Shown: in pieces, positions 2,761-50,500 of the stretch | How the letters are laid out: each line of letters starts with the position of its first letter | How positions within the stretch are numbered: the stretch's first letter is position 1 | From: Sclerodactyla briareus | Lineage: Eukaryota; Echinodermata; Holothuroidea; Dendrochirotida; Sclerodactylidae | Length of the DNA: 64,000 nucleotides | Direction of reading: 5' to 3' | NCBI GenBank assembly: GCA_026419785.1 | Contig: JAODTK010005809.1 | Coordinates: 186,001-250,000, forward strand | The notes under the pieces: model-generated | What the model was told of the DNA's origin: nothing | What the model saw: the letters and a program-made list of their open reading frames with translations, nothing else | The model's database searches: none | Translations under genes and position numbers: made by a program

Positions 2761-3890
2761 CATTGTGATGCTTTTTCCCTACAACAACAAATTGCTGGGT
2801 GCTGACCGCTCAGTGTTTTATACAATTAGAGTGATAGAAGATCACCCCCCCGCCACATCCTTCCCTCCTGAACACAGCCAACCACTGTGGAAATTTTTCT
2901 GTGAAACATAAACGGCCTCGCAGTTCCCCTCTTAAGCCCAGCTCGAGATACAATGTAATTATTGAAGCATCCCAGCCTTCCTTGATAGGATAATCCGAGC
3001 TTGAACACACCCAAAGTACTAAGATTTATCTTGACCGCCTAGTTGCTTGTTTTTTCATGTTGTAATTTTGTGTAGACTGCTCTGATTTCGGCCCATTTCT
3101 GTTTCTCCTTCTGCCACTGATAAATATTATTTAAAGTGCTTTATATATTGATTTGTCTAACCTTGTGAATAGTATCAACAATATTTTTGATCGTAACTGT
3201 TATATCATGCCCTTTCTAAATGAATACAAGATTTTCAACAGGCTGTATTTTAATGAAGAAAATAGCCAGGGCAGGTGTTTTCATGGCGCTCAAAACCCCT
3301 TAAAAAGGTACAAAAATGCTAAATTGTTTATTTTCGTACAAAGTGTGCCATTACACAAGATTTTTTTTCCTTCCTGATATTTTTGTTATATGTGTAAAGT
3401 AGAAATGGACCAGTACTTATTGTATTTCTTAGTTGTGGTATTTTGGCTGTAGCAGGGGTACAATCAGATGGAAGTGGTGATGACTTTTTGTTTCAAATAT
3501 TCTGTTATTCTTGGATGCTAGGGGGTTGTAAATAGCTTTATGTAATGGCAACTTGTATATTCTTCCCACATTGGCAAAAATGAAAATGCTAGTTACTGTG
3601 AAGAAAAAAATTAATCCTGAAAACTTCTATCACATCCAGGAGTACAATTGGCCACTGAAGCATCAGTGTGGGTATATGTTGATTAGCTAAGTCTTTGCCC
3701 TTTTCTAGGAAGGTAATGCATTATTTTTGCAGCTCATTTCTTGGATTGTATAACCTCTCTTTGATAGGGTTACATTAAGTTGGTGTTGGTGATGGTAGGA
3801 ACATAGAAGGGTTACTCACATTGCCCACAGAGAACGACTCATGAGGTATCAATTTGAACTGTTGAGATACTTGCCAAAATAGAACACTCC
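2761..3890. other. No recognised feature
   Basis: AT-rich DNA with short frames on both strands and no supported gene or repeat. It could be further 3'UTR or intergenic sequence. Confidence 0.4.
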
Positions 3891-3893
3891 GCA

Positions 3894-4250
3894 ATGTTCT
3901 CCTCGACATCCGATAGACCAATAGCAATTGGTCACCAAATGATGAACTCTATGATGTACCAACCAAATCCCTTGGTCTCCATAGTGCCACCTAGGACATT
4001 GAGATTTTTCAGTCACTTTGCAAGACTCCAAGAAGAAGCTCCAGCGAAGATCGCTCTGAGAGAAGCATTGAGACACTGCTACGCCAGTTGGGAGACCCAT
4101 GACTCCCTTGCCTGGAAAAAATCAAATCGCAATTCAGGGACTTCAACATTAATAGTTTTGGGGAAGCATAAGCTTACAAAATATCTATACGTGCAGAGGT
4201 TGATCACTGAGCCATGTTGGATAGACGAGACTCAACCTACCGCTAGTTAA
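3894..4250 (+). pseudogene. Decayed LINE ORF2 C-terminal remnant
   Basis: The open frame contains RTLRFFSHFARLQEEAPAK followed by IALREAL, the pattern (FGH.AR...PA..AL) typical of the region after the reverse transcriptase in invertebrate non-LTR elements. In neighbouring frames the expected continuation appears: PVGRPMT (family GRPK/RTTW), then EKIKSQFRDFNI, then AMLDRR. The domain is therefore spread over three frames by indels. No reverse transcriptase core is seen upstream. The clade cannot be fixed from this fragment. Confidence 0.55.
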
Positions 4251-8349: not shown

Positions 8350-9440
8350 CCTGGTGACATTGAGTGCATTTTTTGATGACCAAATTCGTATTGTTGAGAC
8401 AAACCATAAAGTGAATAGGCTAATGTAATACAACCACCCCTATCACAAGCTTATCTCAGTATGCACATGTGGGAAAGGTCAAGGACAGCCTAAAACACCG
8501 AAGGTGACGTTTGAATTGACATTGACATCTCAGCAACAACACATTTTAGAAAGATGTTTTAATGGAAGATTTGGTGGTCCATGCGAACTGCATGCGTTTT
8601 CGTAATGCATGGGGGCCCAATTTTGTTTAAACTTCAAATATTTCGGTGGCCACCTGCCATGAGCAATTTTAGGGTGCTGTGGTCAGGATACAAAATATTT
8701 GACATAATTGTGCCCAGTGCCCCGAATATATATCCCTCAGGCATGAGTATGTATACCCAATTTGAGAAAACCTCCACCTTCAGATGCCCCCAAGTAATAA
8801 TGTGTCGGTTTTACTGTAATACACCTGTATGACTCCCAATAGTGCAACCTTTTCATCAAACACACAATTCCCCTGGAAAGACTGATATTGTCTTGTGGCA
8901 CTGCCGTTATGAGCATATATCCTTCACCCAGTGCTTCCTATGTCAACATAGTTTTTGTGTTATCACTGGTCCCTTCTCAGGACACAACTATACACTTGCA
9001 ATGCTTTACTTGGTGTATTAAGCTCTCAGTGTAGGTCCAATAAGACAATATCCCTAACTCTCAGTGGCCTCTGACAAATTTTGACTGATTTATTTATGGG
9101 CATTCTAAACAAGTAGGCTAATCGACAGTCAATTTCAGAAGGTCCCACCAATAGTGATAGTGTTATATGCCAGTGGGTGGGGGTTGGAGTTCCCAGCATA
9201 CAGGTTTTCACGGACTAAACCTGAAAATAACGGGATGTCGTGCAGGCAAAACATCCCGTTTGATACACTGTTTCCAACCAATTCGGTACATGTAAGGCCC
9301 CTCCTACCCCCCCCCCCTCAGCCCTCTCCATCCCGACAGGTTACCGTACGCAATTGCAAACAGTTTGACTGAGATGAAGAACTTTCCTAAAGGTCAGTGA
9401 ATTTAGCACTTCTATATCCTCCCAAAAACCTGTTTCTGTT
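8350..9440. other. No recognised feature
   Basis: Short frames only. There is a C-rich run at about 9308-9317. Nothing in it resembles the neighbouring arrays. Confidence 0.4.
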
Positions 9441-9924
9441 TAAAGAAATATCAAGTTAATATACACGAACAGATATTTTTAAAACTGGGTCAATGACAGA
9501 ATGACCCGTATTTTCCTAGCCCTGCTCGAGACGAATACGGATGTCATCGTGGACACCTCTAATCAGACCATACTGGCATAACTGGCTATACCTAAAACTG
9601 CCGACTCCTCTACTCGTTGCCTCCCCCCTCCCCCCTCTGATGCTGTGTGGTCATGTCAAAGCTTATCTGAGGTCAACAGAGTGAAAAGGCATGGGTCATT
9701 GGATTCTCGGTGCAATTTGGCAATATCCATTGGTTACCCTATGACTTTGTATCTACTGCTACATCCCACTAATTTGCCTAGTTTACGCAAAAATTTTAAG
9801 TTTGGTCTTATGTGAACGAACTGCCGGATGGATACTTCATTAGTCCCTTGACAAAATTCGGGTCATTTTAAGTCACCGGGTCAAATTTGCTTATTTTTTG
9901 TGATTTTCAAACTTCGTCAGAATT

Positions 9925-11803
9925 AAATTGTGAATTACTTTTCTTACATTAGAGATTGCGATGATTCCCAGTTTCTTCCGTACTTTTTAATCAATCTGTA
10001 ACACTAAATCTGAAAGGAGTTTGCCTGCTCATACTTGTTCTAGGGTCCTTGATAACCAATTTGCGGAATTCTCTCTGAGAAGGTCGATAAAATTCGTGAA
10101 GATCTCGACAAAACACAGGTAGATAATCAGCCTTCAGAAGTCTCACTTTCTCCCATACCATTCGTAGAATTCCAAGAAATGTCTACGGATGATGTGCATC
10201 GTATTGTCATGAACTCTCCTAAGAAAACCTGTTCCTCGGACCCCATACCGACATCTCTGTTCATCACTTGCATTGATGCATTACTCGGTGTAGAAACTGT
10301 TAATATGTCACTTGCTTCAGGATCAATGCCCATAAGTATGAAAAATGCTCACGTGTGCCATCCTAAAGAAGCATAATTTGGAAGTTGACATCTTAAGACT
10401 ATCGGCCAGTCAGTCTTCTGTCTTTTCTCTCTAAGGTCATTGCGAGATGCGGCCTGCGTTCAACTACAAACCTTCTTCGATCATTCAATTTGCACTCACC
10501 ATTCCAGTCCGCTTATCGCCCACTCCACAGCATGAGACTGCAGCTTCTAAAAGTGCAGAGACCTTTCTAGGGCCTCCGACAATCTTCAGAATCGGGTCGT
10601 CATTCTGTTGGATATGACCGCTGCGTTTGACGCCATTGATCACAGCATTTTGCTGTTCCGCATGCAATCCAGGTTCGGAATCGGTGGTACTGTCATTAAG
10701 TGGTTTCTGTCATACTTAAATGAAAGAACTCAACATGTTGTGATTAAAGGCGGTGAGTCTCGCTCTCAGTGCCTGCGTTATGGTGTCATCAGGATCAGTC
10801 CTCGGTCCTCCGTATACTTATACACCAGCCTATTGCAGTGACATCACCGTTCCACACCATGTTGACCACCTGATCTATGCTGATGATACGCAGTTGTACC
10901 TCTTTTCTATTCAATCATATGATCGATAACTGCTATCAGTAGATTGAAGAATGGCGTAGCAGCGGTCATGCACTGGGCCCTCTGTAAATAAGCTTAAATT
11001 GAATGACTCCAAGACCCAAGTCATTCATATCACCCTAGACACCGTGAGTACCAACCACTTTCGCCACTGCGCGTTGGAATTCACTCATTCGGCCCTGTCA
11101 ATTCTGCCAGAAACCTTGGAGTTACAGTTGATCATCACCTTGAGCTCAAATCACATATCCGCAACATGTGCCAATCCGGCTGATATGGTATCCACAAAAT
11201 TGGACATGGCTGAAATATTGACCGGAGGCATTCGGGGCGGGATAGAAAGCTAGCTCATGCTTTTGTATCATCCCGTTTAGACTTCTGTAATAGCTTACTC
11301 GCTGGTCTCCCTTTGTCCGAACTGGGTAAACTCCAGCATATTCAGAATGCAGCCGCCATAATTGTCACCTGTACTAAGCCCAGACAGCATATCACTCCAG
11401 TCCTGCGCAATCTTCATTGGCTCCCAGTTGGCGCTCGAGTTTCCTTCAAGGTTCTGCTTGTCATGTTTAAGATTCACAAAGGTGATTCACCAGCTTATCT
11501 ACAAAATCTTGTAAGGCCCTATGTTCCTGTTCGCAATCTTCGTTCTTCCACGCAGAACCTGTTCTCACAACCCAGAATTCGCACTAAAAACCTCGGTGAA
11601 CGTGCTTTCTCCTGGTTGGGGGCCTTCTCTCTGGAATGCCCTTCCCGAGGATGTTCGCAACTCCCCTAGTATCAGCTCCTTCAAGAGAAAGCTGAAACTC
11701 ATCTGTTCATGCGTCACCTGTGATTTTCTTCTCTTCTCCATTGTAAAGCGCTTCGAGGCATTGCATTAAGCGCTATATAAGCACTACTTTATTATATTAT
11801 TAT
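9925..11803 (+). mobile_element. 5'-truncated L2/CR1-type LINE inserted in array unit 1
   Basis: Units 2 and 3 read CAGAATTGAATAAC or CAGAATGAATAAC at the D-A junction. Unit 1 has CAGAATT at 9918-9924, then 1.88 kb of LINE, then GAATAAC at 11804, so the paralogous units serve as empty sites. The element starts inside the reverse-transcriptase region and ends with a 3' tail containing AAAGCGCTTCGAGGC, GCGCTATATAAGCAC and a (TTAT)n-like end. No clear target-site duplication is seen. Confidence 0.88.
10030..11769 (+). pseudogene. Reverse transcriptase of L2-type LINE, frameshifted
   Basis: This is the ORF2 reverse transcriptase that would copy LINE RNA at the chromosomal nick. In order it shows AEF.SEKVDKIREDL near 10070-10110, the SSDPIPTSL block at about 10240, SPFQSAYRPLHS at about 10500, the catalytic LLDMTAAFDAIDHSILL near 10600-10655, YADDTQLYL with the YADD box at 10876-10887, then SRLDFCNSLLAGLP and HITPVLRNLHWLPV (about 11275-11440). 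A final SLWNALPEDVR block lies near 11630-11660. These blocks sit in at least three frames, so several single-base indels break the gene. The endonuclease domain is missing. The L2 branch of the CR1 group fits the motifs best; the exact clade needs a tree. Confidence 0.88.
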
Positions 11804-12228
11804 GAATAACACTTCAGTTGGTGGATGGGGAGGTCATTTGTTCTTTCTCTACAAAAGTAGTAGAAGGGAGGGAAGGGCAGGGAAAGGCAGTGAAGGAAAA
11901 GGATTATATTTGGAATCCCAAGTGTGCGACTATATAGAATTTTAAGTAAACCAACAAGATCTAATAAGGGGTAATACAATTTTTCTGGTTTGGCCATATT
12001 AGATAAAGCCTGCCAGCTATGGCAAGGAATCACGACACAGTTGGTCTGTTTGTTATAAAGAAGTGGGAAAATCATACGTCGGGGCAATAGGCCCTCGTCG
12101 GGGTGTGTCAATTTTAACGTACCCACTAGGCGCCCCGGAACGAACGAATGGAAAAAGTCACCAAACGGGGGGCCAGGCTTCTCCGACGGGGAGGGCCATG
12201 CCCCCTTCCCCCCCCCCCCCCTGGGGCC

Positions 12229-12394
12229 ACCCTTGCCAATGAAAGCTGTATTTCGTGCCCTCTTCTGTTGGCTGTGGTGCTCTCGTGAAGAGCCACGATG
12301 TTGCCCAATGGAGGCTTTATTTCGTGTCATCTTCTGTTGGATTAGAATGTTTAGATGAAGAGCCACGATGTTGCCCAATGGAGGCTTTATTTCG
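12229..12394 (+). repeat. 68-bp minisatellite, array unit 1 (about 2.4 units)
   Basis: Units follow TTGCCCAATGGAGGCTTTAT, then TTCGTGTCATCTTCTGTTGG, then TTTAGATGAAGAGCCACGATG. The third unit breaks off at TTTATTTCGT and passes directly into block C (AATGGGCGCTG). Block E, present in units 2 and 3, is missing here. Confidence 0.8.
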
Positions 12395-13660
12395 TAATGG
12401 GCGCTGCCTGGAAAATATTTGCTTTCCTTCATACGCCTTCTGATTTATAACATAGGCTACTTATTTTTTTTTCACATGTTCCCGGCAAAACGCAGTATTA
12501 CTTTCAGCAAGAGTTTTTATTTTCGCATGTCTCCCTCAAAAACATGTTTACCTATTTGTTATGCCTATATTAAATATAGCCGAGATCTTCGAATTTCAAA
12601 ATTAGAAATACATTCCAAATAAATCATCCACAATGCACTCGTGCAAAAAATCACACTCTTCACATAGGCTGTCTCGACATAGCGGCGGAACTCGAAGGGT
12701 CGGTATTGGTTGAAGAAAATCAACGTTAATTAGGACAAGCGAACAGATATCTTTCAACATCTGGGTCAATGACAGAATGACCCGTATTTACCTAGCCCTG
12801 CTCAAGAAGAATACGGCTGTCATCGTGTAAACCTCTAATCAGACCAGCTGGCTATACTTGAAACTAGTTAACTGCCGACTCCTCTACTTGTTGCCTCCCC
12901 CCCCAAAATTAAAAAAAAACCGCCCCCCCCCCCCCCCTCCGATCCTGTGTGGTCAGGTCAAAGCTTATCTGAGGTTAACAGAGTGAGAAGCAGGGGGCAT
13001 TGGATTCAACGGTGCAATTTGGCAATATCCATTGGTTGACGCCAATGACTTGTATCTACTGCTACATCCCACTAATTTGCATAGCTTACGCAAAAATTTA
13101 AGGTTTGTCTTATGTGAACGAAACTTGCCGGATGAAGACTTCATTTGTCCCTGACAAAGTCAGGGTATTTTAATGTCACCGGAGGTCAAATTTGCTTATT
13201 TACTGTGATTTTTCAAACTTTGTCAGAATTGAATAACACTTCATTGGTGGATGGGGAGGTCATTTGTTCTTTCTCTACAAAAGTAGTAGAAGGAGGGAAG
13301 GGCAGGGAAAGGCAGTGAAGGAAAAGGATTATATTTGGAATTCCAAGTGTGCGACTATATAGAAATTTAAGTAAACCAACAATATCTAATAAGGGGTAAT
13401 ACAAGTTTTCCGGTTTGGGCCTTATTAGATATACCTGCCAGCTTGGCAAGGAATCACGACACAGTTTTGTGTCTTGTTGATATGAAGAAGGTTGGGAGAA
13501 TTCATACTGAGTCGGCCGGCATAGGCCCGCGTCGGGAAGTTCACTTTTAGCGTACCGCTCAGGTCCCGACAAATGGGGGGGAAAAACTTCCCAAGGGGGC
13601 AAGGCTTCTCCGACGGGGAGAGCTTCCCCCTGCCCACACCCCCCCCGCCCCTGTCGCCAC

Positions 13661-13990
13661 CTTGCCACTGAAAGTGTATTTCGTGCTCCTTTCTGTTGGC
13701 TGTGGTAACTCTCGTGAAGAGCCACGATGTGCCCAATTGGGCTTTAGTTCGTGTCATCTCTGTTTGCTATGGGGGGGGGGGGGGGGGGTGTTTGCTATGG
13801 GTTTTAGATGAGACCACGATGTTGCCCATGGAGGCTTTATTTCGTGTCATCTTCTTTTGGTAGGTGTTTATATGAAGAGCCACGATGTTGCCCAATGGAG
13901 GCTTTTATTTTGTGTCCTCTTCCTTGCTAGGGTGTTTAGATGAAGATCCACGATGTTGACCAATGAAGGCGTATTTCCGTGCTATCCGCT
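13661..13990 (+). repeat. 68-bp minisatellite, array unit 2 (about 4.5 units)
   Basis: Same unit as in array unit 1. The second repeat carries an inserted run of about 17 G at 13772-13788. The last repeat (TTGACCAATGAAGGCGTAT) passes into block E. Confidence 0.8.
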
Positions 13991-15984
13991 ATTGTGGGGT
14001 TTGTTATCCGTAGAAACTGCCGCCTATAGTGGGAGGTGGCTAAAGAGGATGACCTAACATAACAATAGATCGAATTCAGGGCCCTCTTACTTCTCGAAGT
14101 GAGGGGGGCATCATATCGAACCCCCCCCCCCCACACCACAACTTTTTTTTAATCTCGAAGACTTACCTACCTATCTCGTTTACACACGTAGTGGGGTGAA
14201 AAATGTTGAGAAAACAGGCCCGCCCCTCCTCGCAAAGACCACAGTGGCCTTTATTCGAAACCTGATTTTCAAAAATGTTCGCGCGCTTGCCCGCGCTACG
14301 CTCGCAAACGATCTCTTGTTTCTTTTGTGTCGTGCACAATGCATTTTGAAGGCATTTCTGGCGTATATGAAACTTCTCTGCAATTTTCCCACTCAGGACA
14401 TACGTGAGACTATCTAAAGATTTTTCTTCGAAAACAAGGTAGATTCACATTTCCAATAAAATGAAAATTGATTATACAGGAAAGCGGCGTTGGCATATCG
14501 AGGCCGGATGAAAAAAGGAGTCCAGACTGTCCAACACATCAGGGCGTTTAAACAAGTTTACAGATCCCCAAACCGAGGACAACCGCTTTGGTCAAATAAT
14601 AGGCACAATTCAGGCAGGCGAACCTGCAAAGTGATAATTCCCGAGTGCACCAGATTGCCGATTTCAATCTTGTCGAAAGCCCGTAAAAGGTTTGTCAATC
14701 TTGTCAATTTTGGAAGTTGTGGTTTCATTCCAATTGTCAAGGCCCAATATTACTAATTGTAATGGGCGCTGCCTGAAAATACTTTGCCCTTTCCTTATAC
14801 GCCCTTCTGATTTATAACTGGCTCTTATTTTTTTTTCACATGTTCCCTGCAAAACGCCCGTTTACTTTCAGCAAGAGTTATAATTTCGCATGTCTCCCTC
14901 AAAACATGTTTTTAACTATTTGTTATGCCTATATTAAATATAGCCGCCAATTCGAATTTCCAAAATTAGAAATCATTCCACATAAATTATCCACAATGGC
15001 ACCGTGCCAAATCACACTCTTCACTCCAAGCGTCTCGACATAGCGGCGGAATCGAAGGGTCGGTATTGGTTGAGAAAATCAAACGTTAATTAGACAAGCG
15101 AACCGATATCTTTACATCTGGGGTCAATGACAGAATGACCCGTAATTTATCTAGCCCTGCTCAAGAAGAACACGGTTGTCATCGTGGACACCTCTGATAA
15201 GACCACCTGCAAACCTGGCTATACTTGAAACTGCCGACTACTCTACTTTTTGCCCTCTCCAAACCCCCCCCCCCGACCTGTGTGGCGGTCAAAGCTCATC
15301 TGAGTAGTTAACCGAGTGAGAAGCAGGGGTCATTGGATTCTACGGGCAATTTGGCAATAGCCATTGGTTGACTCCTGTTGACTTTGTATCACTGCGACAT
15401 CCCACTATTTGCATAGGCTACGCAAAATTTAAAGTTGTCTATGGTGAACGAAACTTGCGGATGAGCTTCATTGTCCCTGACCAATTCAGGTTATTTTGAA
15501 ATCACCGGAGGTCAAATTTGCTTATTTTTGTGATTTTCAAACCTTTGTCAGAATGAATAACACTTCAGTTGGTGATGGGGAGGTCCATTTGTTTCTTTCT
15601 CTACAAAGTAGTTTGAAGGGAGGGAAGGGCATGGAAAGGCATTGAAGGAAAAGGTATATTACGGAATTCCGAGTGTGCGACTATATAGAAATTCAAGTAA
15701 ACCAACCAATATCTAATCAGGGGTAATACAAGTTTTCTGGTTTGGCCATTACTTAGATATAGCCCTCCAGATATGGCAAGGAGTCACTACACAGTTTTGT
15801 GTCTTGTTTGTTATCAAGAAGGTTGGAAAATTTATACTGTCGGGGCATAGGCCCTCGTCGGGGTGTGTCAATTTTAGTCTGTACCCACTCAGGCTCCCCG
15901 ACGAAATGGGAAAATTCACAAACGGTCCAGGCTTCTCCGACGGGGAGTGCCTTCCCCATGCCCCCACCCCCCGCGCCACCCTGC

Positions 15985-16440
15985 CAATGAAAGCTGTATT
16001 TCGGTGCCCTCTTCTGTTGGCTGGGTGCTCTCGTGAAGACCACGAGTTGCCCAGGAGCTGTTAATTTCGTGTCATCTTCTGTTGGCTAGGGTGTTTAGAT
16101 GAAGAGCCACTAGTTTGCCCCGATGGAAGCACTATTTCGTGTCATCTTCTGTTGAGCTAGGTGTTTAGATGAAGAGCCACGAGGTTGGCCCCCTGAGGCT
16201 TTATTTCGTCCATCTCTGTTGGCTTACGGGGGTTTAGATGAAGAGCCACGATGTTGCCCAATGTAGGGTTATTTCGTGTCATCCTCTGTTTGGGCTAGGG
16301 TGTTTAGATGAAAGATCCACGATGTTGCCCAATGGAGGCTTTATTTCGTGTCATCTTCTGTGGCTAGGGTTTAGATGAGAGAAACGATGTTGACCAATGA
16401 AGGCTTCATTTCGTTGCTATCCGCGATTGGTGTGGTTGTT
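15985..16440 (+). repeat. 68-bp minisatellite, array unit 3 (about 6.5 units)
   Basis: Seven successive GAAGAGCCACGATG/TTGCCC-type units of 65-71 bp can be aligned by eye. The terminal TTGACCAATGAAGG variant is shared with array unit 2. The unit length is not a multiple of three and frames are not kept, so it is not coding. Confidence 0.8.
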
Positions 16441-17744
16441 ATCCGTCGAAACTGCCCGCCTATATAAGTGGGATGGTGACTCTAAAGAGGATGACATTAA
16501 CCATAACAATAGACCGAAATTCAGGGCCTCTACTTTGCGAAGTGAGGGGACATCATATCAAATGCCCCCCCCACCCCCCAACTTTTGATCTTCGATTGAA
16601 GACAGGAATTACCGTACGTTTACACACGTATGGGTGGGATGAAAATATTGAGAAAAAAGCTCGCAAGACCAACACGTGGCCTTTATTCGAAACCTGATTT
16701 TCAAAAATGTTCGCGCGCTGCCGCGTCTACACTCGCCAAAGATCTCTTGTTTCTTTTGTGTCGTGAACAATGCATTTTGAAGGCATGTTCTGCGATATGA
16801 AGCTTCTATGCAAGTTTCCCACTCAGAAACCTAAGTGAGACTATTCTAAAAGAGTTTTCTTCGAAAACAAAGGTCGATTCACATTTCCAATAAAATGTCA
16901 CTTGATTATAACAGGAAGCGCGTCGTTGAGCATACGAGGCCGGATGAGGAGTCAGACTGTTCAAACACATCATGGGAGTTAAAGCAAGTTTACAGATCGA
17001 GGAACAACCGCTTGGGCAAATAATAGGCAGAATTCAGGCAGGCGCGAACTTTGCCAAAGTTGCCAGGCAGTCGTCACCAGTTGCCAATTTCTCTTGTCGA
17101 AAGCCCGATAAAAGCTTGTCAATCTTGTCAAGTTTGGACTTTGTGGTCCAGTCCAAATTGTAGAGGCCAATACGAACATAATTGTAATGGGCGCTGCCTG
17201 GAAAATATTTGCTTCCTTCATACGCCTTCTGATTTATAACATAGGCTACTTATTTTTCACATGTTCCCGGCAAAACGTCGTATCACTTTCAGCAAGAGTT
17301 TTATTTCGCATGTCTCCCTCAACAACATGTTTACCTATCGTGTTTATGCCATTTACATATAGCCAGATTTTCGAAATTTTCAAAATTGGAAATACATTCC
17401 AAATAAATTATCCACAATGAACCGTGGCAAAATCACACTCTTCACTCAAGCTGTCTCGACATAGCTGCGGAACTCGGAGGTCGGTCATTGGGTTCTAGAG
17501 TCCTCCAACTCGCGAAAATGTGACTTTGCCAGGGCGAAAACCTATTTTGCAACAGCACTCTCAGAACTAATACAAATGGTTGTTATTACTATTGAGCTAT
17601 ATTAATTACTACTCACATTTTTCGAGAGTTTGAACATATTTTTGCACTGATATAAGACACAACATATTAAGAAACAATGTAGGGGGCCGTATCAGGGCCG
17701 GAAATATACGACCCTTCCCGTCTCCCCGAACCCTCTCCTTTTTT

Positions 17745-30140: not shown

Positions 30141-30284
30141 TTACAAGCTAGGCCCATTTCTGTAGCGGTGTACGCGAATATATCCCTACCCAATATCTAA
30201 CATGACAATCTACACAATTGAATGCTATGACCGACAGCCAATCACGTCGGTCGTTTGTAAATATCGTGTTAATGGAAAGAAGAA

Positions 30285-32916
30285 CTAGAACATGGCGGGC
30301 GGGTAAGCCGCCATACGTATATATCTCCCCGCATCTCTTCTTCCAGAAATTTGGGTGAACATGAACACGTACACTTTCGTGGAAAGAAGACATTTATAGA
30401 CTTGTGAAGCGACACGTGTACTGGTACATGGTCAGTCCATAATGCACTTGTTAATTGTATGGGCACCCCTACAGCCGCCCCGGACCAAGGTGCGTCCCTA
30501 AATAATCCATTTATTCAAGATTCGACCTTAACCCACCTGCCACCCGACAGAGGTCAAATTCATCTCAGAGGTCACACACATGCAGGTCAACATTCTATCA
30601 CAATGGTGAAACCTCCATCCTTCGCAGATCTTCATTCTCCGTTTAGCCAGAAAACAGTTTTTTGACCCCTAGTGACCTCGAATGACCTTAATGATATGGC
30701 ATTTTTTATGAAAATTGTTACTCTCCATGTTATTACATCCCTCCTCGTCAGCATTTTTGATTCTGATTGAACACACCCAAGGGCTATTGCCGACAAAGTA
30801 CTAAAATCAGTTTTTTTACCCTAGTGACCTTTAATGACCTCCACTGACATGGCGGTTTTTATGAAAATTGTTACCTCCATGTGATGCACCACTCCTATAG
30901 ATATTGCATTCCAATGAACATGTCACATGTTATTGCGAAAAAGGCAAAAAATTGACTTTGACCCCTTGTAACTACCCAATAGTGTCCATCGAAGCGTAGT
31001 TGTTTTCCCACCATAAAGAACACAAAGCGCAATCACATATCCAAAATAACCATTTTCTATTTTTTTTGCCGTACTTCCTTAATAAGCACATTTATTCCAG
31101 ATTCGACCTTCACCCACATGACCACCCGACAGAGGTCAAATTCAGGTCAGAGGTCACACACATTGCAGGTCAACAATTATATCACAATGGTGAACCATCC
31201 GCCTTCGAATATCAATGCTCGCGATTAATCCACAAAACGTTTTTGACCCTAAGTGACCCCAAATGACCTTTCATTGATATGACATTTTTTAGAGATGTTA
31301 CTACTCCTCCATGTGATACATCCACTCCTAGCCTAGGAGCATTTTGCATTCTGATGAAACACCCGGCGCTATTGCGAAAATGTACTATAATCAGTTTTTT
31401 GACCCCTAAGTGACCTCACATGACCTTCAAGACATGGCGGTTTTTATCGAAAATTGTACACTCCAATGTGATGCATCCACTCCTAGTCGCATATTGCATT
31501 CCAATGAACATGTCCCAGTTATTGCGACAAAGGTTAAAAGTGAACTTTGACCCCTGGAACTAACAAGTACGTTCCGATCGAGCGGGAGTTGTTTCCCTCC
31601 ATAAAGCACACAAAGCTCTACGCCATACCAAAAATACCATTTTCTATTTTTTCTGCCCGTTAACTCCTAAATAAGCACATTTATTCAAGAGTCGACCGAC
31701 CTTTCACCCATGACCACCCGCATAGGTCAATTCAGGTCTAGGTCACACCCTGAAGGTCAACAATTTATCACAATGGGACCAATCAGCCTTCGCAGATATT
31801 CAATTCTCCGCTTTATAGTCCAAAAAACAGTTTTTGGACCCTTAGTGACCCCCGGAAGACCTTTAATGATATACAGTTTTATGAAGAAATTGTTTACCTC
31901 CTGTGCTACATTCCCTCCTAGGATCATTTTGCATTCTGATGAACACACCCAGTGCTATTGCCGACAAGGACAAAATCATTTTTGACCCCCTAATTGACTT
32001 TAATGACCTTCAATGACATGGCGGCTCTTATGAAAGTGTTACACACTCATGTGATGCATCCACTCCGAGAAGCATATGGCATTCCAACGAACATGCCCAA
32101 TGTTATTGCGTAAAAAGTATTAAACTTATCTTTTGACTGATCTGACAACTAATATGCAATTAGTCCCCAATTTACCTCAGTGATCTTGATGCCATTGAAT
32201 AACTTTATCAGGACTGGAAGTAGTTCCTATTCACAAAGTTTCGCTCAAATCCTAAAAGTTTTGATAAAATATGCATTAATTATCTAATTATGCTAACGAA
32301 TATGTAAATTAACACACATATGATCTTCAGTGATTTCAATCATTCATAAAATTATCGGGACTGGGGGGGGGTTATAAGGTCCTACTCACCAAGTTTCTGA
32401 GAATCCAACGAAGTTTCTAAATTTGCCTAATTTTCTAATTGGGCAACTATAGCAAATAAGTCCTGCAAGATGACCTCGGGTGACCTCGGCACATTAGGAA
32501 AATTCAATCGGCACTGATAGTTGCCCTAGTCACCAAGTTTCCTTACAATCCAATGAAGTTTGAATATCACAACATTCTGGCTATCAATTAGGCTAATGCC
32601 AAAAAAAAATGCAAACTTGACCTCGTATCCCTGAAATTTCACCAGTTTTTTCGCTCCAACAACTACCCACAACCACAACGTTTCGGTGAAATCGCACGGA
32701 ACTTGAAACCTGCACAATAAGGCACACATATATGTATAGCCCATTTCGAACTTATTTCCGATATTTTACGCATACGACATTGTACCAAGTTTTGGGTCAA
32801 TCGGATAAAGTGTAAAGAATGAGAGCGCTAACGCCTAAGTTTTCCGGGGCGGCGGAGACGGCGGGCAACACGTCCCAAAACCATAATATCCCGAACACTG
32901 TACCGTGTTGCGGGGA
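30285..32916 (-). mobile_element. Non-autonomous Helitron, copy 1
   Basis: Read on the minus strand it starts A|TCCCCG at 32916 with an imperfect palindrome (TCCCCGCAACAC...GTGTTCGGGA), followed by a CCG-rich block and TTAGGCGTTAGCGCT. It ends with a hairpin (GGCGG...CCGCC) 8-9 nt before CTAG at 30288-30285, followed by T. A|T flanks, 5' TC and a 3' hairpin plus CTRR are the accepted Helitron hallmarks. The body holds CTAATTTGC-type repeats and three ~585-bp tandem units. No Rep/helicase frame is present, so it would depend on an autonomous relative. It matches the copy at 45412-48955 over most of its length. Confidence 0.78.
30500..32120 (-). repeat. ~585-bp tandem units inside Helitron copy 1 (about 2.8 units)
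   Basis: On the plus strand the anchor A(A)TAA(G/T)C(A/C)CATTTATTC occurs near 30502, 31082 and 31671, giving periods of about 580 and 589 bp. Each unit carries GACAGAGGTCAAATTCA(G/T), GGTCACACAC, the CTCCTAGGAGC-like palindrome region and TGACATGGCGGTTTTTATGA. Confidence 0.8.
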
Positions 32917-33065
32917 TAATTACTGTTGTTGCGCGCGAAGCGCTCGAATTTTTGCACATTATCCGATATTGATAAGAAAAAAAGTATATTCACAATTCTT
33001 TGTTGTTTTGTATTTCACCGTTTTTCACATTAAAAAAAATATTCCTTTTGGCTGAATTGAAATTT

Positions 33066-37484: not shown

Positions 37485-37885
37485 ACTTGTAAAGCTCCTA
37501 GTCCGGACGGAGTTTACCCATTCCTCCTAGAGTTTCTTGCTGACCAATTTTCCGTTCGTCAGCTATTTATGCCATGAAACTTAAGAAGTTGTTCCTGAGG
37601 ATTGGAGAAAGGCAAAGAGTTAAGCTCATTAAAAAGAAGGTAACTGTTTAATTCTTGTAACTACAGGCCAGTGAGTCCTGTAGGTTTGTAAGGTGATGAA
37701 ATCTATGACCAGTAATTATATGGTTAATTATTTCAATGATTGTAGAGTTCTAGAGTCTCAACATGGCTTCCAGACAGTGTTGAGTTATTTTACTAGGGCT
37801 TCAGAAAGCTTTGACAAGGTGCCGCACAAACGTCCCCTGTTCAAATTGGAGAGTTTAGGTATCAGCGCTATATAATGATGTTGCA
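37485..37885 (+). pseudogene. LINE reverse-transcriptase fragment, Jockey/CR1-like
   Basis: The family order of the N-terminal and central reverse-transcriptase region is visible in several frames: KAPSPDGVYPFLLEFLAD near 37493-37547, EVVPEDWRKAK near 37590-37622, NYRPVS near 37662-37679, SQHGFQ near 37756-37775, and ESFDKVPHKRPLFKLESLGI near 37803-37865, which holds the first catalytic Asp region. The alignment is lost after about 37885, before the YADD box. Indels and stops show that it is dead. It is not contiguous with the C-terminal piece at 34.2-34.7 kb, which lies upstream on the same strand. Confidence 0.8.
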
Positions 37886-43635: not shown

Positions 43636-43640
43636 GCCAA

Positions 43641-44309
43641 TTAGGAAATGACAGGCAGGCGGGTGACCCGACGACGGTATATACCCGCAGGGAATGGCCT
43701 TTGTAGACTTAATTGAAGAAAGACCCCTTACTAATTTATATCATTTGATCGCTGGGACTTTTGAAAGAACTATGTGTTGTCAAGACCAACTGTAGTCCAC
43801 ATCCCCAAAGTTTCGTTCAAATTCGAAAAAGTCAGAAAAAAATCTCAATAAAACAACCCAAATGTGACCTCTGGTGACCTTGAAATTTCGTCATGTTTTT
43901 CGGGACCATCTTTTGAGTTCGAGTTTCATGCAAATCGGTCTAACTCTGTATTTTCAAAAAAAAAAAAAAAAAAACGACCAATTTGACCTCCGGTGAACTT
44001 GAAATCATTGTCATGTTTTTCGGGACCATCTTTTGTCCCCACCATTCAGTTCATGTAAACGGGACAAAATCTTCTTTTTTTCGTTTTGAAAACCTTGCAA
44101 AATAGAGGGAAGCAGACGTGCAGTGACGCCCAATTTCGAAACTCATCTGATATTTTGCTAGAACGGACATGTGTCTCAAGTTTCAGATCGATCGGATAAT
44201 GCGTTAAAGAGTTATTGCGCTAACGCCTAAAGTTTCCGGAGGCGGCGACGGAGACGGCGGTACACCCCCAAGACTATAAATCCCCGAACACTTAAAAGTG
44301 TGGCGGGGA
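43641..44309 (-). mobile_element. Short non-autonomous Helitron, copy 3
   Basis: On the minus strand it begins A|TCCCCG at 44309 with the family palindrome (TCCCCGCCACACTT / AAGTGTTCGGGGA), the CCGCCGTCTCCG block and TTAGGCGTTAGCGC. It ends CTAA at 43644-43641, followed by T, with a short CGGGT.ACCCG inverted repeat upstream. The body is only about 0.67 kb and holds two ~110-bp direct repeats (GATGGTCCCGAAAAACATGA twice). It lacks the 585-bp units. The 3' hairpin is weaker than in the long copies, so that end is less certain. Confidence 0.6.
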
Positions 44310-44311
44310 TA

Positions 44312-45410
44312 TAATGACGTTTGTTCAAACACTTTCGATTTTGAAAGCAGGTTTATATTGGTAAAAAGGGGGTCCGATCCAGTAACCTTCTTCATGTTCG
44401 TGAACCCTCGTGTAATAATTACAGTGGAATGTACTATTAAGGAATTAGTCCTTGTTATATTCAATCTGTTGTCTTCAGCCTGCACCCCCGCGAAATTCAG
44501 GTTACCAGCTTACCGCTTGCAACTGTTCAAGCATTCTTAACACCGCATAATGGTGAAAATGAGGGCGCTATTTTCCTTCCATGCTCCATATTCCTACTAA
44601 AATCATCTGAGTTTATCCACAGATCTGTTCAACTCCTCTCCACTATCCACCTGTTCGTGCTTTTCAAAATCGTGGTAATTCTTTCCGAATTTAATTCTAT
44701 TTTATTATATATATAGTAAAAGAAGAGAGTCCAATTTATTCTTTTTCCTCAGAGTTTTTAGTCCATCTGACTTCCTTTGAGTCATTGTCATGGTTTCATG
44801 CGTGTTTTTTCAGCGTATCTTAAAGGACAACAACAGGCTTGGATACAACATTGTAATATCGTGGAGAATGGAAAACTCTATCTATAGGTCCAAATCCCAT
44901 TTCAATCCGATGTTCTTATGTGGATTATTTGCCTTGAAAGTTTGTTCCATTATGCTGAGAAATTTGGAGAATCTCACTGCGCAATATGCATGACGTCACA
45001 CCTGGACACTGAGAATGTTATCTTATGTATTTGATCGTTTTCATTTCGTAGATTAATTCAACATCTACCAGAGGTTCTGTCAACATCACCAGAGTTCTGT
45101 TGTCTTTCTGCCACCAAAGAACCAAGACACCTACACCACCACTAACAGCTGTCCCTCTCCCATATACTTATGCCTATTCGAAGTGAGAAGAATGTGTGAA
45201 TTTCAATAGAAACACGAATGTTTCGCAGGGTTGTGCAAGTTTCGACCATTTATTTCTTGGGCATGATGGGGTGTTTTTTTATCTTGCGCAATACACATGC
45301 ATCACATTTCGAGACTGTAAATCCGTAACGGAAAGTCGTATGAACTTCGGATTTGGACTGACTCATTAAGTTTGTTTTCTTGATCACTAATTGTTCATCC
45401 ATAATTATAA
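44312..45410. other. Spacer between two head-to-head Helitrons
   Basis: About 1.1 kb of AT-rich sequence with short frames and no recognised gene. Confidence 0.4.
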
Positions 45411-45411
45411 A

Positions 45412-48400
45412 TCCCCGACACACTGATAAGTGTTCGGGGATCTTACGGTTTTGACCCTGTGCCCGCCGTCTCCGCCGCCGCAGCCGCCGGAACCTTTTAG
45501 CGTTAGCGCTTCCTCATTCTTTTAACACTTATCGATTGACCCAAACTGGTACAACTGTCCGTATGAGTAAAATCTTGTATAAGTTCGAAAATGTGCTCTA
45601 TCGTATATTTGCTGCCCCTATTTTGCAGGTTTTCCGCAAAATTTTCAAGTTTGTGCGATTTACCACGACGTTGTGTTTGGGGTAGTTGTTTGGAGCCGAA
45701 AAATGGCGACAATTTCAAGGTCATCCGAGTCAAGTTTGCCATTTCTTTTGGCCATAGCTATTTTTTATTATAGTATAATGGATGTGATATTTCAAACTTT
45801 CTTGGATTTCCATGAACTTGGTGAATAGGGCCAACTATCAGCTGCCGAGAATTTTCCTAATGTGGCCGAGGTCACTGGAGGTCATCTTGCATCTATTATT
45901 GGCATAATAGTTGGCCCAATTACATAGCAATTTATAAAACTTTGTCGGAGCTTCACGAAACGTGGTGAGTAACCTTCTAACAGTCCCGATAAATTATTCA
46001 TGGCATTGAAATCACTGTAGGTCATTACGTGTGTTTATTTTACATATTCGTTAGCATAATGAGAATAATTAATGCAATTATTTCTCAAACTTTTTACGGA
46101 TTTGACGAAACTTTGTGAATAGGAACTACTACTAGTCCTGATAAACTTATTCAATAGCATCAAGACACGGAGGTAAATTTGTGGACTAATTTTGTCTATT
46201 AGTTATCCGATCAGTCAAATGTATGAATTAATACTTTTTTTCGCACAATAACCTTGGACATGTTATTGGAATCACTTAGCTAATTCTATGAGTGGATGCA
46301 TCAAATGGAGTGTAACATTTTATAAAAACCGCCATGTCATTGAAGGTCATTAAGTCACTTAGGGGTCAACAACTGATTTATGTACTTTTTCGGGCACATA
46401 GCACTGGGTGTGGTGTGTTCATCAGAATCAAATGCTCCTAGGAGTGGACTGTATCACATGGAGATAACAATTTTCATAAGAACTGTCATATCATTAAAGT
46501 TCATTCGAGTCACTTAGGGGTCAAAAACTGTTTTTTTGGCTTATCGAAGAATTATATCTGCGAAGGCTGGATGGTTCACCATTGCTATATGATTGTGTGA
46601 CCTGCATGTGTATGACCTCTGCCTGAAATTTTGACCTCTGTCGGGTGGTCATGTGGTTACAAGTCGAATCTTGAATAAAGTGGTTTTTGAGGGTTGAAGG
46701 ATTTACGGGCAAAAAAAATAGAAACTGGTTATTTTTTGATATGTGATTGGACTTTGTGTGCTTTATGGAGAGAAACAACTCCCCGCTTCGATCGACACTT
46801 ACTTTGGTAGTTACAAGGGGTCAAGTTCAATTTATACCTTCTTCGCAATAACATTGGACATGTTTCATTGGAATGGCAATATGCTTTCTAGTAGTGGATG
46901 CAATCACATGGAGTGTAACAATTTTCATAAAAACGTCCATGTCATTGAAGGTCATTCAAGGTCACTTAGGGGTTCAAAAACTGATTTTGTACGTTTTTTT
47001 TCGGAATACCCTGGGGTGTTTCATCAGAATGCAAAATGCTCCTAGGAGTGGGATGTATCACATGGAGAGTAAACATTTCAATAAAAAACTGTCATAAAAA
47101 CATATATTAAAAAATTCATTCGAAGTCACTTAGGGGGCAAAAATGTTTTTTGGCTATAACATCGCAGACTTGAATACTATATCTTCGAAGGCTGGATGGT
47201 TCACCTTGTGATATAAATTGTTGACCTGCATGTGTGTGACCTCTGACCTGAATTTGACCTCTGTCGGGTGGGCATGTGGTTAAAGGTCGAATCTTTAATA
47301 AATGTGCTTTTTGAGGCCACGCAACCTTTCCGGGGCTGTATGGGTGTGCCATATAATTAACAAGTGGATTATAGGCCTATTGTTGAGTCCACTATTTAGT
47401 ACTATGGTCGTTTTCATTACCATTAGTCACACTCCTGTTCCATCATCAGAGTTGGAATATCAATTTCTGTCCTAACAATATCAAGGATATTCTCAGAATC
47501 TACTACTTCGTTAAAATTGTGCACACCCTCCATCACTTGGCAACATGTAAGACGCATCCCCATACCCCCGGACAGGGCGTGTCAAATGTTGTCAATCGTC
47601 AAAGTCAAAGTGACTCACATATGACACTTTCAATAAATCGTAAGTCACAAAACTGACCGGGGGGTGCGTCATTTTGTTCTGATTATGTAGAAAATAATAG
47701 ACAAGCTGCCTACTGTGGGTTCTTTCAAGATTGTAAGCAGTAAGTAACTGAGGGGTGTGTCATGTTAAAAAATTGCAATGACTCCACCTTTGACAATTGG
47801 AACTCACACCCTGGTCCTGGGTATAGGAGTTTGATGCGTCATACAATCGACAAGTACATTAGAACTCTCTTGAGTTCTATACATTCCCTTCTCTTTTTCT
47901 GTCATCTCTATGCTGTATTTAATAATTGACCTGAAGTAAACTTCCCAGCTCTCCCTAAGTAGGTAATAAAACCAAGTTAATTGGCATCACAAAATCATGA
48001 AACCACGATTATTGTCCTTATGTAATTTTGGGTCCCCCCCAAGGCTTACATAGAAACCCCTTTATATTAGTGTAAGCGGACCGGAAAAGTGAAATTCTGT
48101 TTGTTAGTCTTTCTCATTTTCCGGAGACCATGTGCAATACAAATGATAGCAAACGTTTTGAAGCAACCAAATCAAATGTAAGATGGTAAAAAAATAGATT
48201 TTTAAAATAGTGACAGTTGGACTTTGGTGTCCTCCCTTAACTTGAATTTTTGACATTCAAAGTCCACAAACTACCCTTCTTCAAAAGATTTTGTTTAAAC
48301 GTTTCCTGAAATTATTCTGTAGTCTGATTTATTATTACACACCACACGATTTTGGGTTAACTAACTCCTAATTTTCCGAAATCTAGCAACAAAAAATCAC

Positions 48401-48955
48401 TTGGTGTCCCACCCCCTTCACTATGAACCAGGAAAAATATGCGTCTTATGGCCCTAAAACTGAAACTACCATTAAATGAAGAATTGTTTAATATCCCTGT
48501 CAGAAATATACAAAAATCAGATCATTTCATAAACAAATTAAAGCTGGGTGGGGTTGATTTACTTTTAATACTTTGGTGTCCCCTTTAACTAATGAAACCC
48601 TGTATTATCCACTTTATGAGACCTTTGGATGTTTTATATAATATTTTTCAATGCCAAATAGTGTTTGATCAGTAGAAATGACGAATGACACAAGGAAGTC
48701 CTTCTTGAGTAGACATTGATTGAGTCAATGGCTGAAAAACTGATTTTGGGCCTGAAATATCCATGTCCATAAGGTTCCCCTTCTGTTTCAATTTATGAAT
48801 GACCCATTTACCTGTACATGTTGTCGCTTCACAAGTCTATAAATCTTCTTTCATTCTACGAATATTGTCCGGTTTCATTTCCAACCCAATTTCTTTCTTG
48901 AATAAGAGTGCGGGGATATAACGTCTGGGCGGTTTACCCGCCCGACACTTTCTAG
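45412..48955 (+). mobile_element. Non-autonomous Helitron, copy 2
   Basis: It starts A|TCCCCG at 45412 with the family palindrome (TCCCCGACACACT...AAGTGTTCGGGGA), then GCCGTCTCCGCCGCCGCAG and TTTTAGCGTTAGCGCT. It ends with a strong hairpin (GGGCGG-loop-CCGCCC), an 8-nt spacer and CTAG at 48952-48955, followed by T. The core matches the inverted copy at 30285-32916, including the ~585-bp repeats (about 1.7 units here). It has about 1.43 kb (47378-48812) that copy 1 lacks. No Rep/helicase frame is seen. Confidence 0.78.
47378..48812 (+). other. Extra segment in Helitron copy 2, absent from copy 1
   Basis: Copy 1 passes from ATTAACAAGTGCATTATGG to the terminal GTCGCTTCACAAGTCTATAAAT within about 35 bp, while copy 2 has 1.43 kb between these landmarks. 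The segment has three spaced TTGGTGTCC phrases (about 48223, 48401 and 48572) and no recognised gene. It may be captured sequence, a nested insertion, or ancestral sequence lost from copy 1. Confidence 0.5.
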
Positions 48956-49189
48956 TTTGATCCTGCATTTGTCCCGGTGTTACAAATACACGCATGTAGA
49001 ACGCGTAGTTGCGCTATACTGGCGGGTTACGAGTCTGGGGTAGCACGGAATGTAGACCTTCACTTTTGTTCAACATTCATTCCAAACCACACGGGCCTTC
49101 TCATGCGCCAAACCGGCCAACATGTGCAGCATGAAAAAAACGATCTGCAGCAGAACAAGAAAACATCGTTTCTATTTCGGAAAATGCCC

Positions 49190-49816
49190 GTGGTCATCGA
49201 CATCTACGCCCAACTACACCGAGGGAAGTAATATAATTAACATGTTTGTTTATCGGACATGTGCCTGATTACACCTGCACCACTGGGGGAGAAAGACTAT
49301 CAACTCGAGGTTTATCGAACATTCGCCCAACATAACCATATAAGATGATTAGGCAATTTTATGCTGGTTTTTGGACCATACGGCAATCATACGCGGTTTG
49401 CTAACACACGCCTACAACGCTAAAGGGACGGGGGAGGCAATATAGGCGTGGTTTATCGAACATACGCCTAACTATACAAGGGAGGAGCGAGGCAATATAC
49501 GCGGGTTTGTCTACATACGCCTACCTTAACCAGAGGAGGAAGGCAACATAAGCGTGGTTTATCGAATACGCTTAACTATGTCCAAGAGGAGGGAGGCAAC
49601 ATAGGCGTTGCTTATCGAACATACGCTATCTCTGACAGAGGGAGGAAGCAACATCGGCGTAGTTTATCGACATCACGCCCTGGCTATTCAGATAGGAGGA
49701 GCCACATAGGCGTGGTTTGTCTAACATACGCCCTACCTTTAACCAGAGAGGAGGAAGGCAACATAGGCGTGTTGTCTAACATCGTCCTACTATAACCAGA
49801 GAAAGAGGAAGCATAA
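49190..49816 (+). repeat. Minisatellite, ~50-60-bp units
   Basis: Units follow AGGCAACATAGGCGTGGTTTA, then TCGAACATACGCCTAACTAT, then AACCAGAGGAGGA, about eleven times. Early units are diverged and later ones clearer. It begins about 235 bp after the Helitron 3' end at 48955. Confidence 0.75.
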
Positions 49817-50337
49817 AGCTTTTTAAGATCCTTCTACTCATTTTTAAAGCAATCAATTTGCGCTCCTAGTTTCCATCATTTCAGACGCTGTAATTCCACT
49901 GCACTGTTCCTTCCTGAATCTCTAAGGTCATCTTCCAAGCACAGCTTAAAGTCATGGTTCGCTCCTCCACCATCCTACGGTGCCCGTTCATTCGCCTCGG
50001 CTGCTCCTCACTTGTGGAATAGCCTTACTGACTCTCCCCCCCCCCCAACCCCCCCTGTCCGAAGAGCCGCCGCTACACGGTAAACTATTTCAAGTCACTT
50101 CTTAAAACATTGCGTCTTCACTCAGCACTTTTGTAGGACTGATTTCCTGTGATGGCTTTGGTGTGGTGTATCTCTTGTCTTTAGTCATATGCTTATTCTT
50201 TTCCTCGGCCTATTCTTTTCTGCTAGGGTTGTTTTTTTCTTTCCGGCCTGTAAAGCGCATTGAAGGAGACTTTTGCATTAGGCGCACCGGCCTGCGTATG
50301 GATAAAGCGTCCTCAGTATTTTATAAATTATTGTTAT
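49817..50337 (+). mobile_element. L2/CR1-type LINE 3' end inserted in the minisatellite
   Basis: It encodes LFKILLLIFKA at its start, then YGARSFASAAPHLWNSLTDS near 49975-50035 (the conserved G.R.F..AAP.LWNSL block of L2-type ORF2 C-termini), then a TVNYFKSLLKTLRLHS-like helix, with frame breaks and a poly-C run at about 50036-50046. The 3' UTR has TGTAAAGCGCATTGAAGG and GCATTAGGCGC, and ends TAAATTATTGTTAT, after which minisatellite units resume. It is heavily 5'-truncated. Confidence 0.82.
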
Positions 50338-50500
50338 ATACGCGTAGTTATCGAAAGACGACTAACTTAATGTCAGATGGAGAGAGGACCTGGGGAGTGG
50401 GCAACAGTACGCGTAGTTTATAGAAACATACGCCTAACCTAAACCATAGAGGAGGAAGGCAGTATACCCGGGGTTTATGGAACAACGCTTCACTTAACAG
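50338..50500 (+). repeat. Minisatellite, continuation after the LINE
   Basis: About three units (TACGCGTAGTTTATAGAAACA, CATACGCCTAACCTAAACCA, GAGGAGGAAGGCAGTATAC) of the array at 49190-49816. Further degraded units may lie at about 51765-51870 (ATACGCGTGTTCGTCGAACA). Confidence 0.7.

Follow-up and report, generated by a model that had tools for sequence, protein, structure and literature searches.

A non-autonomous rolling-circle transposon family in Sclerodactyla briareus, probably of the HLE2 branch, with hairpins at both ends and insertion at TNAT|T

Introduction

In the account of Bao and Jurka (2013, PMC3627910), Helitron2 elements carry asymmetric terminal inverted repeats 8-15 bp long, the 5' copy of which lies 0-2 bp from the end within a 5' hairpin and the 3' copy a short way ahead of the 3' hairpin; their 5' end starts with T. 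Neither such repeats nor a hairpin at the 5' end count, in the same account, among the features of Helitron1 (PMC3627910). The oyster Cg_HINE elements, which are described as non-autonomous Helentrons related to pearl, have a left part made of an 11-12 bp subterminal repeat, a complementary repeat at a distance of 1-12 bp and also a microsatellite, followed by central tandem repeats and a right part of about 60 bp with the subterminal repeat and a palindrome (PMC7492417). For the Fusarium elements FoHeli1 and FoHeli2 the target is given as TNAT|T in a figure legend and as TNAT and A in the text (PMC5148889). Here we describe a family from Sclerodactyla briareus whose layout, once its 5' border has been corrected, reads TNAT|TATATCCCCGCA...CTAGT|T.

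Results

A multi-copy family in the window and in the assembly

Three copies of the family lie inside the window, by which we mean the whole 64,000-nt stretch of DNA that was analysed. Their corrected coordinates were set by analogy with the three insertions tested below, and should be read as follows:

45406..48956, + strand: copy A, whole element with corrected borders, TAAT|TATAAATCCCCG...CTTTCTAGT|TTG; borders probable, from the empty sites of other copies, with a 1-nt T ambiguity
43640..44313, - strand: copy B, 674 nt, a member of a short subfamily, TCAT|TATATCCCCG...CCTAAT|TGG; 3' end read by eye
30284..32918, - strand: copy C, about 2.7 central repeat units, TAAT|TATCCCCG...TTCTAGT|TCT

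Copies A and C are 78% identical across 1980 nt, and B matches A at 72% over 234 nt and C at 74% over 187 nt. All three share a TCCCCG...CGGG(G)A palindrome, a CCG block and a TTAG(G)CGTTAGCGC motif, as the original prediction had noticed; the border that it drew at A|TC was contradicted by similarity among copies and by empty sites.

The genome searched was the 319-Mb assembly (3171 contigs) that holds the window. When the first 121 nt of A were used as a query, 715 first-look candidates were returned, of which the best 40, A among them, were scored; given the 715 candidates, the count of at least 40 family 5' ends is a lower bound. The resulting set comprised 42 copies, that is, the 3 window copies and 39 loci from the rest of the assembly, the latter taken with about 400 nt upstream and at most 6.5 kb downstream. 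The 3' end was not located in the examined stretch of 9 of the 42 copies, and the end and hairpin of B were then read by eye. The set of 33 copies with both ends includes one locus with a doubtful end (L034), which was excluded from alignment A3. With the last 86 nt of A as the query, the best 40 places of 385 candidates were scored, and 18 of these 40 right ends matched the final 57-62 nt of the query alone, which suggests that the right end is common to families with different bodies.

Rfam and tRNA scans of the window gave no matches, and neither did searches of viral_contigs and genome_contigs with the exact end patterns. At least one of five terminal strings occurs in 101 papers, and the 15 of these that were listed are unrelated, as judged by title. 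Two other repeats were seen in the window. One, at 9437-17491, is a unit of about 2.4 kb in some three direct repeats, 80-85% alike, with arrays of a repeat of about 70 bp and a short stretch similar to the left part of copy A. The other is a 53-bp minisatellite of 6.4 copies (49432-49771), which starts about 480 nt past the 3' end of A and whose degenerate copies span 49286 to 50489.

The element begins outside the TC dinucleotide

Reading the copies by eye had placed their 5' border at TC (A from 45412, with its 3' end at 48955, B from 44309 and C from 32916). This would make the family a canonical Helitron1 that lies between an A and a T, starts with TC, ends with CTAG and has an unusual 5' palindrome, and such a reading is favoured by the CTAG at the 3' end of 27/33 copies and by the A that precedes TC in 37/42. 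In the 42-copy set, however, similarity runs outward past TC, and the four bases outside TCCCCG are conserved like the element itself (A at -1 in 37/42, T at -2 in 34/42, A at -3 in 33/42 and T at -4 in 37/42). An exact TATA precedes TCCCCG in 28/42, and a weaker TNAT follows still further out, standing exactly at -8..-5 in 23/42 copies as compared with 2.2% per position in flanks. Since alignment does not distinguish a TATA that is a target preference from one that is part of the element, empty sites were used to decide between the two.

Of the 33 copies in which both flanks are present, 8 contributed their joined flanks to this search, in which the best 40 of 493 candidates were scored. This yielded paralogous empty sites for three of the eight insertions, and 20 of the 24 listed junction-spanning places were examined (11 for L036, 8 for L033 and 1 for L041; C3155, C3099:510469, C2804 and C2018 were excluded). 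All 20 favour an element TATATCCCCG...CTAGT lying between TNAT and T, with score sums of 2511 for this junction and 2373 for A|T, and the four outer bases form an alignment gap in each of them. These bases read TATA in L033 and L041 and GAGA in L036, which accounts for 11 of the 20 sites and whose GAGA we take as a mutated TATA. Where the first reading led one to expect A|T empty sites, the TNAT|T junction scored higher at every site examined, and a canonical Helitron1 border is ruled out at these three insertions. The cleanest case is that of L041, in which the filled site reads CATCAT|TATA...CTAGT|TTCCCC and the empty site CATCATTTACCC.

The comparison has its rougher edges. The eight empty sites of L033 carry C or A in place of the T of TNAT seen in the filled site, so that only 8/20 empty sites read AT|T at the junction (7/11 for L036, 0/8 for L033 and 1/1 for L041). 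Against three relatives among the examined loci, L033 scored 101/93, 84/84 and 95/88 for TNAT|T/A|T. Poor alignments gave 64/70 for L031, 60/62 for L030 and 21/19 for L044, and the junctions of L031 and L030 thereby lean slightly towards A|T, on weak alignments. At L033, L036 and L041 there is no target-site duplication and the filled flanks join as T^T, with the placement of the junction ambiguous by one T. Judged from these three insertions, TATATCCCC is the start of the element and TNAT|T its target, which is entered without target-site duplication. The border therefore moves by 4 bases in the family and by 6 in copy A; in A and L022 the TNAT is found two bases further out than in other copies because six bases, not four, separate it from TCCCC.

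Some of these insertions share their surroundings. A, L022 and L033 are inserted in one host repeat family, A and L022 about 90 nt beyond the site of L033, and part of the 3' flank of L036 resembles the same repeat family, which is perhaps a preferred landing place for the first three.

Asymmetric inverted repeats and a hairpin at each end

With the border in its new place, the ends of copy A can be described as follows:

45406..45418, + strand: 5' asymmetric terminal inverted repeat, TATATCCCCGCA in the family and TATAAATCCCCGA in A (from the sequence of A and the consensus)
45411..45441, + strand: 5' terminal hairpin of A, 13 pairs (from the fold)
48909..48920, + strand: 3' asymmetric inverted repeat TGCGGGGATATA (from the sequence of A and the consensus)
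48923..48946, + strand: 3' hairpin GTC-GGGCGG-TTTAC-CCGCCC-GAC (from the fold)
48952..48956, + strand: 3' terminus CTAGT (from the sequence, with the end placed from empty sites of other copies)

In the consensus, the 5' repeat TATATCCCCGCA is the reverse complement of TGCGGGGATATA at 12/12 positions and the next outer base is mismatched, so that the inverted-repeat match stops at the inferred border. In single copies the match is ragged: among the 21 of 33 copies in which the anchor was located and enough sequence followed, it holds at -1 in 12, at -2 in 13, at -3 in 8, at -4 in 13 and at -5 in 8. The 5' repeat supplies the outer part of the stem of a 5' hairpin that in the consensus, ATATCCCCGCAACACT-GTA-AGTGTTCGGGGATAT, has 15 pairs and one bulged C. 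Both the inverted repeat and the palindrome thus reach into the four bases outside TC, and both an asymmetric inverted repeat and a 5' hairpin are foreign to Helitron1 as that branch is described in PMC3627910. Together with the empty sites, this makes a Helitron1 between A and T highly improbable.

The palindrome itself is certain. Its 5' fold has z < -2 in 37/42 ends, with a mean z of -5.2 (200 letter shuffles each), and its 34-nt extended form ATATCCCCGCAACACTGTAAGTGTTCGGGGATAT occurs with at most 2 substitutions at 109 places in the assembly, the reversed control at 0. The near-perfect palindrome that had been predicted at the 5' terminus is in this sense far beyond chance; it is imperfect in the three window copies, which have 13 (A), 12 (B) and 9 (C) pairs. 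We also asked whether its pairing covaries. Across the 42 copies, 2 double-change pairs were found, a number matched in 110/500 shuffles, and the covariation score was matched in 41/500. Among 40 genomic copies with two mismatches, both changes fell on one pair in 3 and restored pairing in 2, these two being the same A-T to G-C change (0.36 expected if independent); the count was drawn from the listed places, with 9 of the 109 outside the listing. Covariation is not clearly above shuffles, and selection on the pairing of the 5' hairpin is not clearly indicated.

At the other end, TGCGGGGATATA is found 36 nt from the 3' terminus, a short way ahead of a hairpin that in the family reads GTC.GGCGG(TTTAC)CCGCC.GAC and is followed by ATTTTCTAGT. 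This 3' hairpin has z < -2 in 20/33 copies, which, with the 5' folds, upholds the expectation of hairpins at both ends. The predicted order of a hairpin before CTRR|T was likewise borne out: A and C end in CTAG|T and B, by eye, in CTAA|T, and across the 33 copies the base after the terminal 4-mer is T in 32 and TT in 29. A CTRR end after a hairpin is found in Helitron1 and is also compatible with other branches.

Inverted repeats and a palindromic end might also suggest a cut-and-paste transposon, in the form of a foldback or a miniature inverted-repeat derivative. The repeats, however, are asymmetric, at distances of 0 nt (5') and 36 nt (3') from the respective ends, the empty and filled sites of three insertions show no target-site duplication, and a 3' hairpin with a CTAG end suits rolling-circle elements, all of which leaves a cut-and-paste origin with hardly any probability.

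Multiple ends were seen at a few loci. At C2398:105665-107052, three 5' palindromes on the same strand lie within 1.4 kb and are possibly tandem or nested left ends. Locus L026 has one left end and two right ends 348 nt apart, possibly the result of a nested insertion, or of read-through as far as a second terminator. At 3388-4157 of the oriented copy, L047 contains head-to-tail units of about 250 nt, each closing with the same 3' inverted repeat, hairpin and CTAGTT, and the sequence upstream of these tandem right ends is other sequence.

A body of microsatellite and tandem array

Between these ends, copy A contains the following parts:

45462..45490, + strand: CCG-rich microsatellite, varying among copies (from the sequence of A and copy comparison)
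45497..45509, + strand: TTAGCGTTAGCGC motif, TTTAGGCGTTAGCGC in the family (from sequence comparison)
46226..47316, + strand: central array, about 1.8 units of about 590-600 nt (from repeat comparison)
47372..48793, + strand: extra sequence of about 1.4 kb ahead of the right end, absent from C and covered on average by about 6-12 of 32 other copies

The same order is found in the family, in which a left part of about 800 nt with the CCG microsatellite and TTTAGGCGTTAGCGC is followed by the array of repeats of about 590 nt and a right part of about 170 nt. Full length ranges from 1.47 to 4.39 kb across the 33 copies with both ends. Array occupancy lies within 0.1 of 0.75, 1.75, 2.72 or 3.71 units in 23/33 copies and is intermediate in 10/33, and in L037 sub-repeats of about 148 nt are found within the unit. 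The extra 1.4 kb before the right part is present in copy A and a minority of other copies.

Coding capacity and the source of the enzyme

Copies A and C, the two measured, have longest stop-to-stop open reading frames of 101 and 104 aa, respectively, which makes both non-autonomous. No frame in the window exceeds 214 aa, and a Pfam search with six frames from the window gave no matches. A frame remnant, SFDKVPHKR..., at 37790-37860 of the window is similar to sequence beside L030 and is, from its motif, presumably reverse transcriptase-like.

The original prediction also advised looking for an autonomous Rep/helicase relative with the same ends, and none was found in the 319-Mb assembly by PF14214 (Helitron Rep) and two protein searches. 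The profile search gave 3 matches at 2 loci among 4 candidates. One of these (C2413:103101-103575) is in two pieces in different frames and the other (C2926:127103-127219) has one internal TGA, breaks that may stem from decay, introns or sequencing indels; the fragmentary Rep regions to which they belong, C2413:102597-103668 and C2926:127043-127225, hold the only PF14214 matches in the assembly. Protein searches with the C2413 locus returned itself alone, or itself and the C2926 locus at 48% identity. Of the end motifs searched for, none was found around the two loci (C2413 101601-105075 and C2926 125603-128719). The only listed family 5' end on C2413, L038 (C2413:91864), was considered as the start of an autonomous element containing the Rep at C2413:103101 and was rejected, as L038 ends after 2.7 kb and the Rep lies outside it.

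Within the HLE2 reading, the enzyme might come from a Helitron2 in the narrow sense, without an endonuclease, rather than from a Helentron, which would make this a Helitron2-N family and not a HINE. Such a source has in its favour the 5' repeat at 0 nt from the 5' end within the 5' hairpin (PMC3627910) and the TNAT|T target shared with FoHeli1/2 (PMC5148889). The microsatellite and tandem-repeat body, however, has the layout of a HINE (PMC7492417), and a T^T junction also suits the TT target described for Helentrons (PMC4067079). We regard a narrow-sense Helitron2 source as a serious possibility with slightly less than even chances.

Discussion

We conclude, with a probability of roughly 0.9, that the family is a rolling-circle transposon of the HLE2 branch (Helitron2/Helentron; HINE-type), present in many copies and non-autonomous. 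The original assignment to the Helitron superfamily of rolling-circle elements stands, but not that to the canonical A|TC...CTRR|T class, for the element starts TATATCCCC and its target is TNAT|T; it was the misplaced 5' border that made a Helitron1-type element of one that is HLE2-type. In place of insertion between A and TC, which was seen at none of the 20 empty sites (these belong to three insertions), the consensus has the asymmetric terminal inverted repeats of HLE2, the 5' one at the terminus and the 3' one upstream of the hairpin, and a 5' terminal hairpin of 15 pairs containing the 5' repeat. The layout of a repeat and complementary repeat, microsatellite, tandem array and right part is that of a HINE, with open reading frames taken from A and C only, and insertion at TT without duplication is seen in the filled flanks of L033, L036 and L041, with AT|T in 8/20 empty sites. 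The family is a new one of an already known kind and not a new kind of system. The strong 5' palindrome, which had been thought unusual, is together with an asymmetric inverted repeat a published mark of Helitron2 (PMC3627910), and what is mildly unusual, for an element that is HLE2-type in other respects, is its TNAT|T target and its Helitron1-like CTAG 3' end.

The placement of the repeats, the 5' T and the two hairpins described for Helitron2 are all present here, with the 3' repeat 36 nt from the end as compared with about 20-30 nt there, and the target of the Chlamydomonas Helitron-1N1 is given as TTTT|T/C as opposed to TNAT|T (PMC3627910). This likeness is structural: since no autonomous partner with these ends was found, membership of HLE2 is judged by the termini. 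With Cg_HINE it shares the microsatellite left part, the tandem array and the short right end, the last being the 57-62 nt matched alone by 18/40 right ends; it differs in its 590-nt units with sub-repeats of about 148 nt, its left part of about 800 nt and its CCG microsatellite, those of Cg_HINE being mostly of 4 nt (PMC7492417). FoHeli1 and FoHeli2 have a 12-bp inverted repeat, hairpins at both termini and the same TNAT|T target, but are autonomous fungal elements of about 5-6 kb with a 3' end of ATTTT and not CTAGT (PMC5148889). DINE-1 and HINE-Mo resemble the family in their subterminal repeats (palindromic in HINE-Mo), 3' palindrome and non-coding nature, in the microsatellites or tandem repeats of some copies and in a TT or T-rich target; unlike here, the repeats of HINE-Mo are described as lying 2-4 nt inside the 5' end, and an autonomous Helentron is known for it (PMC4067079). 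The lepidopteran Hel-2 likewise has a 5' inverted repeat, subterminal inverted repeats, a 3' stem-loop and a CTAG 3' end, and is reported with a 5' TC and flanking A/T (PMC4344730), whereas empty sites put the border of the present family 4 nt further outward.

The steps by which such an element would move can be suggested from the biology of Helraiser (PMC4778049) and Helitron2 (PMC3627910), as far as these sources describe it. A Rep/helicase acting in trans would nick T^T at the 5' end, after which one strand would be unwound and displaced until the 3' inverted repeat and its hairpin were reached; the resulting circle, joined at T^T, would then insert at T^T within TNATT. Bao and Jurka propose for Helitron2 that the 5' hairpin is opened when the two repeats pair, and that the end point is fixed in this way (PMC3627910). 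The anatomy of the family appears to fit this proposal, and its two inverted repeats, by pairing at the expense of the 5' hairpin, may signal where replication ends.

In IS608, the target is recognised by guide-like base pairing. A comparable role for the TATA before TC, as a host target read by pairing with sequence after the 5' hairpin, was considered and dropped because the TATA turned out to lie within the element. The TNAT outside it might form weak pairs with an internal ATGG; this pairing is not claimed, since FoHeli, which has a different terminus, also targets TNAT (PMC5148889).

It is conceivable, though we think it unlikely, that the termini are hybrid, the 5' end being HLE2-type (T, inverted repeat and hairpin, with T^T in TNATT) and the CTAG 3' end Helitron1-type. 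If that were true, some published A|TC...CTAG|T Helitrons that have an inverted repeat at the 5' end, Hel-2 for example, may be bounded too short by a few bases and may be members of this branch, and the two branches would be able to exchange ends. More generally, a TC...CTAG reading made by eye can conceal an HLE2-type element, and empty sites can decide. As a HINE-like family with a satellite-like array of 590-nt units that varies mostly by whole units, these elements would be useful for the study of how tandem repeats are spread by rolling-circle transposons.
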